This document shows positions 13,475 to 17,303 of a DNA stretch of 35,984 nt, one piece after another. The position numbers and the translations under genes were made by a program. This stretch comes from Planctomycetaceae bacterium (GTDB lineage: Bacteria > Planctomycetota > Planctomycetia > Planctomycetales > Planctomycetaceae). The DNA is taken from the NCBI GenBank assembly GCA_009691905.1, contig SIAF01000008.1, positions 1 to 35,984 of the forward strand, in the 5' to 3' direction. Below the pieces are notes generated by a model. The model saw only the letters and a list, made by a program, of their open reading frames with translations. It was not told the origin of the DNA and searched no databases. The stretch's first letter is position 1; each line of letters opens with the position of its first letter.

Positions 13475-14971
13475 CTACCCGGCGGCGGCCGCCGAGGCCG
13501 AGGGTGCGGCGACCGCAGCCTCAACCAGGCAACTCAGGGCACGCGTCAGCACAGGCTGCGGGACGCTCTCACCCGAGATTCGAACGTGCTGCAGCAAGGC
13601 CTCGTCGATCGTCGTGCGTCCGCTCGCAAGATCGGCCAGCAGATCGACGTCGCACTGCAGCGTGGCCACGCGCTGCGGATGCAAACCCAAATCAGCGGCC
13701 ACGATTTCATCACCGCTCAGCGACAGGCTCCAATCGCCGCCGCCGTGTCCGGTGACGCGCAGCCCCAGCCGAAACGGCGCGATGTTGTGATTGGCAGCCG
13801 GCCCCGCCGAATCGAGGAATTGTTCGAGCGCGCCGGCAACGTCAAAGTGCGGTTCGACCGGTTTCGCTCGCGGCGAGGTGAAATTCACTCCGATCGCCCA
13901 ATCGGCCATGCGACGCAACATGCGACGGTCGACGTGCGGACACGGCAGGTGCGGGGCGGCAGTGCGCGTGGCTGTCGCATCGAATGTCGGGTCGTCCTTC
14001 CAGTACGAACTGTAAACTTTGATCAGTTCGCAAAATAGTTGTTCGATTTCGGTGAGGCCGGTCAATTGCGTCCCGCCCCCCACCAGGCGGACCCCGTAAA
14101 AGCCGCACGATTCTTCGAGCACATCGGCGAGCATGCGGGCCGTCACAGGATGTTGCGGAGTCAAGTGGTACGTCGCCCCGTGGTGTTGGGGGTGCGTCAT
14201 CACGTGCACCATCACGGCCGAGACCCAGTCGACGGGGACCAGATTCTTGGTTTCGAAGGTCGACAGCGGAAATCGCGTTTGCGTCGAAACCCGGCCGGTG
14301 GAATTGACCTCCATCGCACGGACCATCGTATACGCCGCCTGCAAGGGGGCGTAAAAGCCATGATAGGTCGTCGTGAATGAATTCTGCGAATCGCCGACGA
14401 TAATCGCCGGCCGAAAGACCGTCAGGCTGTCCAGAAAGCTGGCCGATCGCACTATTTTTTCGGCCTGAATCTTGCTTTGCTCGTAGTCGTTCGACAGGGT
14501 CTGGCCGACGTCCAGATCCGATTCCAGAATCCTTCCCTGACGCTGCCCGCAGACGTAGGCGGTCGACACGTGATGGAATTGCCGAATTCGTGCGTTGCGA
14601 CACAACTCAAGGACGTTGCGCAGCCCCTCGACATTCGATCGCCAGGGTTCGCTGGCCGGCCCCGTGCTTTGAAACGACAGACTGGCCGCGTTGTGCAGCA
14701 TGGCGTCGCAGTTCTCGGCCACCCAGCGCATCCCGCGGGCGTCGAGCCCCAGGTCGGGTTCGGTAATGTCACCTTCCATGACGACCGGCCGTGGCAGCTT
14801 GCAACCGAGCTGCTTGTCCCAATAGCACATCACGTTTTCGACTCGATGCAGGGCCGTGGCGCGCCTCGAGGGGCGCACCAGAACGGCAACAGGCACGTCG
14901 GAAAGAGTCAGGTCCTTGATCAGGTACCGACCCAGGAGCCCGGTCGCTCCGGTCAGAAACGTATAGGCCAT
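13475..14971 (-). CDS. Thioester-reductase-like SDR with C-terminal SCP2-like region
   Basis: 498 aa. The N-terminal 370 residues form an extended SDR/NAD(P)-binding domain of the 'male sterility' type, which reduces acyl thioesters to aldehydes or alcohols. Visible are the cofactor loop TGATGLLG (residues 7-14), the active-site strand HVSTAYVCG (134-142) and the catalytic YEQSK (Tyr163, Lys167). The C-terminal part (about 385-490), with CDVDLLADLASGRTTIDEAL and HVRISGE, resembles a sterol-carrier-protein-2 lipid-binding domain. The fusion suggests that a lipid or acyl substrate is handled by the same chain. AAGGGA lies about 9 nt before the ATG. It is 145 bp downstream of an RND exporter gene on the same strand, with a perfect hairpin in the gap. 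Confidence 0.82.
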   Translation of the reverse strand: MAYTFLTGATGLLGRYLIKDLTLSDVPVAVLVRPSRRATALHRVENVMCYWDKQLGCKLPRPVVMEGDITEPDLGLDARGMRWVAENCDAMLHNAASLSFQSTGPASEPWRSNVEGLRNVLELCRNARIRQFHHVSTAYVCGQRQGRILESDLDVGQTLSNDYEQSKIQAEKIVRSASFLDSLTVFRPAIIVGDSQNSFTTTYHGFYAPLQAAYTMVRAMEVNSTGRVSTQTRFPLSTFETKNLVPVDWVSAVMVHVMTHPQHHGATYHLTPQHPVTARMLADVLEESCGFYGVRLVGGGTQLTGLTEIEQLFCELIKVYSSYWKDDPTFDATATRTAAPHLPCPHVDRRMLRRMADWAIGVNFTSPRAKPVEPHFDVAGALEQFLDSAGPAANHNIAPFRLGLRVTGHGGGDWSLSLSGDEIVAADLGLHPQRVATLQCDVDLLADLASGRTTIDEALLQHVRISGESVPQPVLTRALSCLVEAAVAAPSASAAAAG

Positions 14972-14997
14972 TGTGCAAATTCCCTTGAGCCATCTGG

Positions 14998-15021
14998 AAC
15001 GAACGGCATCTGCCGTTCGTT
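14998..15021. promoter_or_regulatory. Perfect 11-bp palindrome between RND exporter and reductase genes
   Basis: AACGAACGGCA (14998-15008) and its exact reverse complement (15011-15021) are separated by 2 nt. The dyad lies 27 bp upstream of the reductase ATG and 96 bp downstream of the exporter stop (minus strand). No T-run follows on either strand, so an operator or processing hairpin is as likely as a terminator. Confidence 0.45.
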
Positions 15022-15116
15022 ATACCCGCCAATCCGGGATTGTATCCACTGGGCGCAGTCGCCTCAACTTATGCGTCGATTCACAGCCACAACCGGCTCG
15101 CCGGCTGACGTTGACA

Positions 15117-17303
15117 TCAGGCAACCCGGTCGGCAGCCAGGCTCCGCGCCGGGCGCACCGATCGCAGTCGGCCGGGTGCCGTCGGTTGCAGGTCTTCGGC
15201 TGTGCCAGGACGCCGAACGCGGCGCCAAGCCAGCAGTGCGGGCAACAGCAACAAATCGCCCGCCAGGGTTGCCATCAGCAAAGTGGCCATCAGCACGCCG
15301 AATCGCACGGTCGGTGCGAAGCTGCTCAGGGCCAGCGCCAACATCCCGATGCTGGAGACGACGATCGATTCGAAAATCGGTCCCCCGGTGGTGATCAGCG
15401 CCACACGGACCGCATGCGCGTTGGACCGTCCCTCGGCGGTTTGCTCGAGGTAGCGTACGAGAAAATGAAACGTGCCATCAATCGAGATTCCCAGGGCGAT
15501 GCTGCCCGTCATCATCATGCCGATATCGACCGGGAAACCGATCCAGCCCAGGGTTCCGAACACAATTCCCAGCGGGACGAGGTTGGGGATCATCGCCAGA
15601 AGCATGATTTTGACCGAACGCAGCGCAATGGCCATCACCACCCCGATCACGATAAACGCCGCCGCGAAGCTCTTCCAGAAGCCGTCGAAAATCTCGCGCT
15701 GCGCCTGTTCGAGCAATGGAGCGATTCCGGTGAAGTGAATCGGTTGGCCGGCCGTCTGCCGTTCGAGATCGCGATGCACTTCGTTGAGGGTCTTGCCGGC
15801 GGGAACATTGATCCGCGACGAAATCCGCCAAAGCTGCTGTTCGCCAACGAGAAAATCGTTGTTGCTTTTCTTCGACTCGGCCCGTTGCAGCAGGCTCACC
15901 AGCGCCAACGGATTCTCAGGGAGTTCGTCGGGGAAGAACGATGCCGCCGAGAGCGTATGACGCACGGCGGGATTCCGGCGAATCGTCTGCTCCAGCTCGC
16001 GCACCCGGCTCAGCCGTGCCGCAAACGGCAGGTCGCTGTCGCCAAAGTCAATCACGGCTTCGATCGAGTCGAGGTTGGTCAATTCGTTCTGAATGCGATG
16101 CACGTCGGCGAGAACCTTGCCGTCTTTCGGCAGAAAATCGAGCGGGTCGATTTTCGTTTTGATTCGCGCCAGACCCAGGAATCCGACGATCGCCAGACCG
16201 AGCGCGGCGACGGTCACCACCTTGTGGTGTCCCAACAGCCAGTTTGCCAGCCGTCCGAACCCGAGCCCGTTTTCCCCGACCGTCTCGACTTCAACAGGGG
16301 GAAGCACGGTCAACAAGGCGGGGGTCAAGGCAATGCCGACTACGATGGCGACGACCGCCCCCAGGGTCGAGGCGTAACCGAAATGAGTCACCGGCAGAAT
16401 ATCGGTGACGCTCACCGAAAACAGCCCGATCGTCGTCGTCAGCATCGACACCAGGCACGGCTTCCAGCACAAACGCAACGCCTCGCCGAGCGGGTCTTCC
16501 TTGCCCAGCGAGGCCTTGTAGTAATGAATGACGTGAATCGCTGCTTCCAGCGTAAACACCATGACCATGACCGACAGCGCACCGAGAATGAAGTTCATCT
16601 CGCCGCCGCAGAATTTGAAAATCGTCAGCGTCAGGTTGATGGCCCAGATCGTCAGTCCCAACACCGACAACGACAACTTCCAGTCTTTGGTCCAGTAATA
16701 GAGCAGGCCGGCACACAAGAGCAGTGTGACGATGAAAAACTTCTGGTTCTCGGCCAGGCCACCCAACCGATCGAGTTCGGTGATCAGCACCGGGCCGCCC
16801 GAGAGGCAGATCTGGTCGCCCTGCATGCGGCAGTAGTCGAGTTCGCGGCGAATGTCGTTGACGGTGCCGGCCCGATCTCGAATCCCCGCGTTTGAAAGCA
16901 GCACCACCACGCCGAGGAGTTTGTCGTCGGTCGAAAAGGCCAGTCCTTTGAGCCGCTCGTGGGCCGTTTCGCGACTGACGCCCATTTCGCCCATCATCGT
17001 CTGCAGGCGGTCGGGCGACCAGCAGCAGCGAACCCCGGGCAGGCGATCGAGCCGGCCGCAGATCGATTCGACCAACGTGTCGTCGGCGGCCGACCGTTCG
17101 ACGCCGATCAGAATCACTTCTTCGACACCGAAGTCGCGTTTGAATTGTTCGTAGGTGGCCCGAACCGGCGAATCCTGGGGCAACCAGGTTTCGATGTTGT
17201 TGTTGGCGGGTACCGAGTCGGCCTCGATAAACAGATACGGAGTGCTGAGCACCACGAACCAGAGCAGCGCGGTGCTATATCGTTTGTAAAATCGTGAGAG
17301 CAT
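15117..17303 (-). CDS. MMPL/RND superfamily exporter
   Basis: 728 aa proton-driven inner-membrane exporter of the RND superfamily, MMPL-type. Topology is the classical duplicated one: a first membrane helix (about 10-28), a periplasmic loop, a five-helix bundle (about 190-340), another single helix (365-385), a second loop, and a five-helix bundle (546-692). The second bundle contains GISIDGTFHFLVRY, matching the conserved Asp-bearing helix of the family. MMPL-type proteins usually move lipids or hydrophobic molecules. Its neighbour 145 bp downstream is the reductase/SCP2 fusion, which fits a lipid product. The ATG at 17303 starts directly before the first helix; a GTG at 17366 is possible. 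Substrate unknown. Confidence 0.88.
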   Translation of the reverse strand: MLSRFYKRYSTALLWFVVLSTPYLFIEADSVPANNNIETWLPQDSPVRATYEQFKRDFGVEEVILIGVERSAADDTLVESICGRLDRLPGVRCCWSPDRLQTMMGEMGVSRETAHERLKGLAFSTDDKLLGVVVLLSNAGIRDRAGTVNDIRRELDYCRMQGDQICLSGGPVLITELDRLGGLAENQKFFIVTLLLCAGLLYYWTKDWKLSLSVLGLTIWAINLTLTIFKFCGGEMNFILGALSVMVMVFTLEAAIHVIHYYKASLGKEDPLGEALRLCWKPCLVSMLTTTIGLFSVSVTDILPVTHFGYASTLGAVVAIVVGIALTPALLTVLPPVEVETVGENGLGFGRLANWLLGHHKVVTVAALGLAIVGFLGLARIKTKIDPLDFLPKDGKVLADVHRIQNELTNLDSIEAVIDFGDSDLPFAARLSRVRELEQTIRRNPAVRHTLSAASFFPDELPENPLALVSLLQRAESKKSNNDFLVGEQQLWRISSRINVPAGKTLNEVHRDLERQTAGQPIHFTGIAPLLEQAQREIFDGFWKSFAAAFIVIGVVMAIALRSVKIMLLAMIPNLVPLGIVFGTLGWIGFPVDIGMMMTGSIALGISIDGTFHFLVRYLEQTAEGRSNAHAVRVALITTGGPIFESIVVSSIGMLALALSSFAPTVRFGVLMATLLMATLAGDLLLLPALLAWRRVRRPGTAEDLQPTAPGRLRSVRPARSLAADRVA

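Follow-up and report, generated by a model that had tools for sequence, protein, structure and literature searches.

A thioester reductase-SCP2 fusion paired with an MMPL transporter in Planctomycetaceae: a candidate module for making and exporting a reduced lipid

A thioester reductase of the short-chain dehydrogenase/reductase (SDR) type, fused at its C-terminus to a domain of the sterol carrier protein 2 (SCP2) superfamily, is encoded next to an MMPL transporter in a stretch of 35,984 nucleotides from a Planctomycetaceae bacterium (contig SIAF01000008.1 of assembly GCA_009691905.1; hereafter the window). The two genes form a real conserved module that joins ordinary parts in an unfamiliar combination. 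On balance, and with due caution, we favour the view that the pair makes and exports a reduced fatty-chain lipid.

Domain composition of the two proteins

Both genes lie on the minus strand, and calling of the open reading frames (ORFs) and Pfam searches bear out the positions and the domain description given for them in a preliminary description of the window made from its letters:

13475..14971, minus strand: thioester reductase-SCP2 fusion (SDR-type reductase with a C-terminal SCP2-superfamily domain), ATG start, 498 aa
14210..14956, minus strand: NAD_binding_4 reductase domain, residues 6-254, Pfam E 1.1e-47
13508..13840, minus strand: SCP2-superfamily domain, residues about 378-488, with a GxGGG(D/Q)W motif, assigned from profiles, orthologue tails and predicted fold
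14972..15116, minus strand: intergenic gap of 145 bp between the MMPL gene (upstream) and the reductase gene (downstream)
15117..17303, minus strand: MMPL/RND-family (HAE3-like) transporter, 728 aa, ATG start, Pfam MMPL

In the reading direction the transporter gene comes first and the reductase gene follows 145 bp downstream. The genes were called by a simple custom script and not by a standard gene finder; the MMPL ORF has a possible earlier start at a GTG (17366), and the codon-position GC of both ORFs is consistent with real genes (GC3 0.75 for the reductase and 0.77 for the MMPL).

The reductase domain passes the Pfam cut-off for NAD_binding_4 (PF07993) with 162.9 bits against 20.1, and by sequence it comes closest, among solved structures, to the R domain of MxaA (E 4.4e-26) and a polyketide synthase (PKS) thioreductase (1.4e-18), followed by an R domain of a nonribosomal peptide synthetase (NRPS), carboxylic acid reductases (CAR) and a fatty acyl-CoA reductase. 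In a Foldseek search with the full-length AlphaFold model of the 498-aa protein (pLDDT 89.2, pTM 0.90), the first ranks likewise go to MxaA and the PKS thioreductase. The nucleotide loop TGATGLLG spans residues 7-14, and Y163 and K167 make up the YxxxK site; these two residues, S136, T137 and the loop glycines are invariant in both alignments that we inspected (A1 with 11 rows and A2 with 39 rows), and the YxxxK site and the loop align with MxaA. We take the S/T-Y-K residues and the glycine loop to have catalytic and nucleotide-binding roles. NAD_binding_4, the MxaA-type relatives and the conserved active-site residues together confirm the earlier assignment to the thioester-reductase class of SDRs.

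MxaA, which acts in myxalamid synthesis (PDB 4u7w and 4w4t), and the terminal R domains of PKS and NRPS share with the window protein the extended SDR fold, the nucleotide loop and the YxxxK site, and represent its best match in both sequence and structure. Unlike these, the window protein stands alone instead of at the end of an assembly line, and it possesses an SCP2 domain in addition. Fatty acyl-CoA reductases and CAR belong to the same domain family and probably perform the same chemistry, at low identity. CAR has an adenylation domain and a carrier domain, whereas the window reductase has neither, and no ligase is found among its scanned neighbours.

Sequence profiles and the predicted fold place the C-terminal tail in the SCP2 superfamily. 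Pfam misses the window's own tail: the full-length protein gave no SCP2 match even at E 10, and for the isolated tail SCP2 was the sole Pfam match, at a sub-threshold score (E 0.24, 12.2 bits against the PF02036 cut-off of 21.3). A PF02036 search of the window's own genome likewise returned no match, because the tail has diverged. At a lenient E <= 10, however, PF02036 matches 15 of the 21 tails (best 1.9e-6), the alkylsulfatase tail family PF14864 also matches 15 (best 1.5e-6), and the PF02036 cut-off is passed by the tails of three of the seven tailed-reductase genomes (G205, G259 and G199), but not by those of the window's genome (G000), G235, G323 and G240. Comparison of the tails with stand-alone SCP2 proteins of two distant families by hhalign gave a probability of 97.6% (E 3.1e-12), and a tail profile searched against the PDB found an alkylsulfatase-type protein (3.3e-6) and yeast SCP2 (3.1e-4). 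Structure prediction had been proposed as a check of the SCP2 fold, and the AlphaFold model of the tail alone (pLDDT 85.6, pTM 0.74) indeed finds SCP2 structures first: rows 1-17 of the Foldseek result are all SCP2 proteins or SCP2-bearing sulfatases (best E 8e-5), with TM-scores to the query of 0.41-0.55. The best VIA-align Z was 9.5 (rmsd 3.3, 103 aligned), the tool's level for no clear match being 7 to 8. In the model the elements follow the order helix, four strands, two helices, strand, helix. Since tail profiles, orthologues and fold agree, we regard the SCP2 identity as settled for the window's tail as well, and the earlier claim of an SCP2-like C-terminal region stands on orthologue tails above the PF02036 cut-off, on profile comparison and on the predicted fold.

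The most conserved feature of the tail is a GxGGG(Q/D)W motif, which is kept in this reductase group. An SCP2 fold attached to an enzyme is also found in the alkylsulfatase SdsA1 and in human MFE-2, which are the best structural matches to the tail and which act on fatty chains. The window protein differs from both in that the partner of its SCP2 domain is a thioester reductase and in that the tail carries this motif. In several Pirellulaceae-type reductases (L101, L105, L111, L114, L115, L117 and L118) the motif is kept as GPGGGQW and the remaining SCP2 tail appears shortened or degenerate.

The neighbouring transporter passes the Pfam MMPL cut-off (PF03176; 77.0 bits against 20.5, E 1.7e-21), in agreement with its earlier description as an exporter of the lipid-type class, and scores 147.3 bits with the HAE3 model TIGR00921, under the cut-off of 351.9. 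The Asp of the second-half GxxxD motif (GISIDG) is kept in 39 of 39 aligned MMPL proteins. In the first half, the Asp that is usual in the RND fourth-helix motif is absent from the core helix of the window MMPL (VFTLEAAIHV), at a residue that varies among homologues. The PF03176 class of RND transporters is common to the window MMPL, HpnN, MmpL3 and BstA, and the available text of PMC10942540 describes HpnN and BstA as RND lipid carriers. The window protein, however, lies far under the equivalog cut-offs of HpnN (104.6 against 751.85 for TIGR03480 and 57.1 against 1100 for NF052374) and MmpL3 (18.7 against 1400), and the BstA model is not among its listed matches in the NCBIfam scan.

Conservation and limits of the pairing

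In a draw of 150 genomes of the window's family, the reductase is present in 136 (E <= 1e-40), mostly with one match each, and a close MMPL homologue in 107 (E <= 1e-100). Places of both genes are listed for 98 genomes (the count uses 135 of the 136 reductase genomes, the place in G336 not being listed, and all 107 MMPL genomes), and in 42 of these 98 the two lie within 3 kb of each other. Each of the 42 pairs is on the same strand with the MMPL gene upstream. Chance adjacency was rejected: two single-copy genes are expected within 3 kb of each other in roughly one of 1000 genomes of 6 Mb, a figure that is our own estimate and to which the relatives do not contribute as independent draws.

The partnership is not confined to this family. 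A reductase match (E <= 1e-10) was found in 57 genomes of a phylum sample of 199, and at least 20 of these 57, belonging to seven families (six besides the window's own), have a listed MMPL match no more than 11 kb away on the same contig, a lower bound read by eye from the listed matches. Conservation of the pair across planctomycetes, which had been named as a point to check, is hence supported as MMPL-reductase proximity. In the locus set, which comprised the best 80 loci, four loci of family f44 with wide flanks (G195, G106, G088 and G122) place a separate SCP2 gene between the reductase and MMPL genes, and on the far side of the MMPL a gene that weakly resembles AMP ligases. The separate gene encodes 121-123 aa (SCP2 E 6e-17 in L042, the others also over the Pfam cut-off) and represents the only PF02036 match in each of the four genomes. 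A separate SCP2 gene is also present in L045 (family f75), with no MMPL in its 10.9-kb stretch, and reductase-SCP2 fusions over the Pfam cut-off occur in two more families (L044 and L047; f28 and f56). Seven loci (L041-L047), those of f44 and related ones, share near their reductase-SCP2 genes a conserved protein of about 404 aa whose sole match, to AMP ligases, is weak, for example at L042:4618-5832 and L041:13349-14578.

In a tree of 39 MMPL proteins, the linked MMPLs of the window's type fall into one clade (SH-aLRT 100) together with four unlinked orthologues, and the linked MMPLs of the Pirellulaceae type into a separate clade (97) nested among unlinked paralogues; L138 (G121), labelled unlinked here, lies 15 kb from the reductase of that genome. 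These two groups are clearly apart, and the other placements are only suggestive. Linked MMPLs thus belong to more than one MMPL subfamily, with unlinked paralogues branching between them, so that the partnership has formed again, or has exchanged its MMPL, at least once. Like the reductase tree described next, this tree was built by a quick method and has long branches, and a fresh pairing cannot be told from an MMPL exchange by a gene tree on its own. Further cases of re-pairing are suggested, resting on long branches.

The reductase tree (100 rows after L070, of 51 aa, had been dropped) contains three planctomycete clades. Tail status was scored by the GG-x-W motif, except for L044 and L047, which were scored by Pfam (50 rows with the motif, two with a Pfam tail and 48 with neither), and gene context within 9 kb, where several contigs end sooner and absences are therefore not firm. 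The window's clade has 36 rows, 26 of which form a subclade without the tail (SH-aLRT 96). Of the 22 PKS-linked rows, 20 fall in the second clade, which has 29 rows, and in the third (21 rows) an MMPL is found in four rows, a GT2/GT21 glycosyltransferase in 12 and neither in seven.

Several of our observations weigh against a make-and-export module of the form proposed here. The reductase does not reach the curated cut-off of NCBIfam TIGR01746 (147.6 against 213.35 bits), and since it falls short we call it R-domain-like and not a named member of that model. Some genomes retain the reductase although they have no close MMPL homologue (136 against 107 of 150), and the two genes are not adjacent in 56 of the 98 genomes, including genomes in a single contig (1.3 Mb apart in G199 and 24 kb in G323). 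Some of the 56 cases are contig breaks, probably so in G264, where locus L058, with identical contig number and gene position, has an MMPL piece upstream, and perhaps in G251. The gaps in the 42 adjacent pairs range from 129 to 1002 bp, which is not the spacing of a tight operon, and tight operon coupling is accordingly unsupported. Moreover, none of the 26 rows of the tailless subclade has SCP2, and 11 of the 26 still adjoin an MMPL; the fusion is therefore not required for the partnership. A tail-profile search of 23 genomes found the tail in all seven tailed genomes, and in 15 of the 16 tailless ones no tail domain anywhere at E <= 0.01. In the remaining genome, G242, a 583-aa frame matches weakly (E 0.0096), and PF02036 finds other SCP2 proteins in three of the 16 (G048, G069 and G242). 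Loss of the tail is thus generally not compensated by a close copy elsewhere in the genome, and since the MMPL neighbour can nevertheless be kept, SCP2 is not essential.

Within the 145-bp gap of the window, none of the five terminator-like sites found by the scan is located, and the one promoter-like site (15067-15039) is not above chance, 0.9 being expected.

Given the fixed-order adjacency in 42 of 98 genomes and the separation in 56, we conclude that the genes are paired in a conserved manner and not by chance, without the pairing being obligatory. The preliminary description had named a C-terminal region unlike SCP2 and separation of the two genes in close relatives as outcomes that would speak against it. 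The tail is SCP2-like, but the genes do separate in many relatives, some of them with genomes in single contigs.

Source of the acyl chain and alternative explanations

Of the ten ORFs neighbouring the pair in the window that were scanned with Pfam, seven gave a match at E <= 0.001 (DUF1559, a CMD-family protein, a GDSL hydrolase, a YceI/EF-hand protein, a sulfate permease, ArgJ and PutA) and three did not. No acyl ligase, carrier or synthase was among the ten, just as had been noted from the letters.

Elsewhere, the recurrent neighbours of the reductase are enzymes for building lipids or polyketides; the neighbour clusters were built by BLAST, and Pfam or NCBIfam names were obtained for only a few of their members. 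In 15 loci a GT2/GT21 glycosyltransferase is encoded no more than about 6.5 kb from the reductase, in many cases on the opposite strand; Pfam confirmed the identity of those in L092, L101 and L129, the last being HpnI-like. This cluster, found in Pirellulaceae-type loci (L092:11616-12848, also L101, L105, L129 and others), hints at a glycolipid. Eight loci have, within about 8 kb of the reductase, a protein from a wax-ester/PapA-like cluster, whose members in L037 and L095 were named by Pfam or NCBIfam. G243 has a second copy of the MMPL gene, its product showing 43% identity to that of the window, next to a wax-ester/PapA-like acyltransferase gene on one contig (C168:38-3789). In L037:406-18967 (G121), the reductase-SCP2 gene is clustered with a synthase containing multiple acyl carrier protein (ACP), ketoreductase (KR) and dehydratase domains, a phosphopantetheinyl transferase, a Rieske oxygenase, a FabG-like SDR, a class-III aminotransferase, an AMP ligase and a condensation/WS-DGAT-like protein; this looks like an amino-lipid pathway. 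In L038:8643-19001 (G152), the reductase-SCP2 gene is followed by a two-ACP protein (PfaA-like) and a large protein with two ketosynthase domains, an acyltransferase domain and a KR domain (KS-KS-AT-KR), which also contains a PF03417 acyltransferase-like region.

We searched for the synthase of L038 in 30 genomes of the window's family, which were chosen by hand and not drawn, as were the sets for the glycosyltransferase, acyltransferase, tail-profile and PF02036 searches. Matches at E <= 1e-30 were found in nine of the 30: in five of the 25 genomes with an adjacent pair (G240, G270, G048, G069 and G327) and in four of the five without one. The 20 adjacent-pair genomes without a match include the window's own, whose assembly is 93.7% complete and which likewise gave no match to PF16197, a marker of type I PKS; the synthase query was that of L038 and not HglE. 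Neither of the two genomes of the window's genus has the synthase, and none was found in the single-contig genomes G181, G314, G024 and G259. Since only five of 25 adjacent-pair genomes possess it, the pair does not depend on a synthase of the L038 type, and a neighbouring PKS as the full explanation was rejected for the window's lineage. Because no type I PKS was found, ordinary fatty-acid synthesis is most likely the source of the chain in this lineage, ordinary acyl-ACP or acyl-CoA being the simpler supply. The window's genome has three PP-binding matches.

The reductase could alternatively act as the release enzyme of a PKS encoded elsewhere, of the type that makes polyunsaturated fatty acids or heterocyst glycolipids, whose very long chain (poly)hydroxy alcohol would then be glycosylated and exported, as with HglB of cyanobacteria. 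This would fit the sister clade, in which 20 of 29 rows have a type I PKS match within 9 kb and one carrier protein is PfaA-like (121.9 bits, far under the cut-off of 1010), the glycosyltransferases near the reductase in 15 loci, with a homologue of 27% identity in the window's genome (E 2.5e-32), and the synthase matches in four of five tested genomes without an adjacent pair. HglB and HetM resemble the window protein, in the role proposed for it here, in that a thioester reductase serves a long-chain, exported envelope lipid. In the available text of PMC8064123, HglB consists of an ACP plus a thioester reductase, is required for the heterocyst glycolipid and has an enzymatic activity that is still unexplored; hglT glycosyltransferase mutants accumulate fatty alcohol (PMC7360850, available text), and an hglE-type cluster is mentioned for a Pirellulaceae genome in the text seen of PMC13190842. 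The window protein, however, has no ACP (no PP-binding match, the reductase domain starting at residue 6) and an SCP2 tail instead, and its neighbour is an MMPL, whereas the HglB glycolipid is exported with the devBCA genes as far as the same text of PMC8064123 describes it. Without a carrier domain and with no PKS found in its genome, the window system works like HglB in outline and is not a member of that type, a comparison made by description and not by sequence. Together with the scarcity of the L038 synthase among adjacent-pair genomes and its absence from the two genomes of the window's genus, this renders a PKS origin unlikely for the window's pair. A search of the open-licence literature found no paper on long-chain diols in planctomycetes.

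Somewhat less probable again is a fatty alcohol or aldehyde used within the cell for envelope ether lipids or wax-like esters, the MMPL moving the finished lipid or being unrelated. The solved relatives include a fatty acyl-CoA reductase, wax-ester/PapA-like proteins lie near the reductase in eight loci and adjoin an MMPL paralogue in G243, and ElbD-type ether lipid genes are reported for metagenome-assembled genomes of Planctomycetota in the available text of PMC11868695. Yet a search for such an acyltransferase at E <= 1e-6 found none in the window's genome and one in only three of the 14 genomes tested, and no ether-lipid gene is among the scanned neighbours in the window, the rest of the genome not having been searched for these. 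That the adjacency was simply inherited, an ordinary core reductase standing beside an ordinary transporter, has a low probability, below that of both former explanations: it would account for the genes being apart in 56 of 98 genomes and for reductases without a close MMPL homologue, but not for an order and strand fixed in all 42 adjacent genomes, nor for distant families that pair with MMPLs of other subfamilies. We give least credit to a sterol- or hopanoid-type system, in which the SDR would act on a polycyclic lipid bound by SCP2 and carried by an HpnN- or BstA-like MMPL. The presence of SCP2, the 104.6 bits with TIGR03480 and the description of HpnN and BstA as RND carriers of hopanoids and sterols in the available text of PMC10942540 point in this direction; the reductase, however, scores far lower with 3Beta_HSD (47.7 bits) and HpnA (42.3 bits) than with NAD_binding_4 (162.9 bits), its first structural neighbours are R domains, and the MMPL is far from the HpnN and MmpL3 cut-offs, with BstA not listed. 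On profile scores and fold, a sterol or hopanoid SDR identity was rejected.

A possible route to an envelope lipid

In the make-and-export module that we favour, the soluble R-domain-type reductase would accept a long acyl chain bound as a thioester to a carrier or to CoA, with NADPH as the probable cofactor, reduce the thioester and release the chain as an aldehyde or alcohol. This step is backed by the family, the predicted fold and the active-site residues. The fused SCP2 domain would most likely, to judge from its predicted fold, hold the water-insoluble chain as it enters or leaves the active site. Before export the product would probably be glycosylated or acylated by an enzyme encoded elsewhere, and the inner-membrane MMPL would move the resulting lipid towards the outer membrane, a role suggested by its family and its gene neighbourhood.

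More tentatively, and with less confidence than we place in the pair itself, we propose a phylum-wide module that reduces, holds and exports, into which different MMPLs have been recruited and which in the window's lineage may work without a PKS and make a fatty-alcohol-based outer-membrane lipid. The reading offered in the preliminary description, a reduced lipid that is made and moved, retains the reductase class, the SCP2 domain, the lipid-type exporter and a pairing beyond chance, but has to accommodate that the genes separate and that the fusion is dispensable. Its suggestion of an undescribed pathway is plausible, although the parts are of known kinds and the sister clade occurs in PKS clusters that resemble known lipid-making ones. 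Among the matches listed in a search of open-licence literature (titles and beginnings of abstracts, subscription papers lying outside), no description of the reductase-SCP2-MMPL combination was found.

The reductase is nearly universal in one planctomycete family (136 of 150 genomes). The occurrence of fused and stand-alone SCP2 forms with varied MMPLs offers a concrete reading for bacterial SCP2, namely that of a carrier of a reduced acyl chain, and the module may hence provide a testable route to an envelope lipid in a phylum with unusual membranes.

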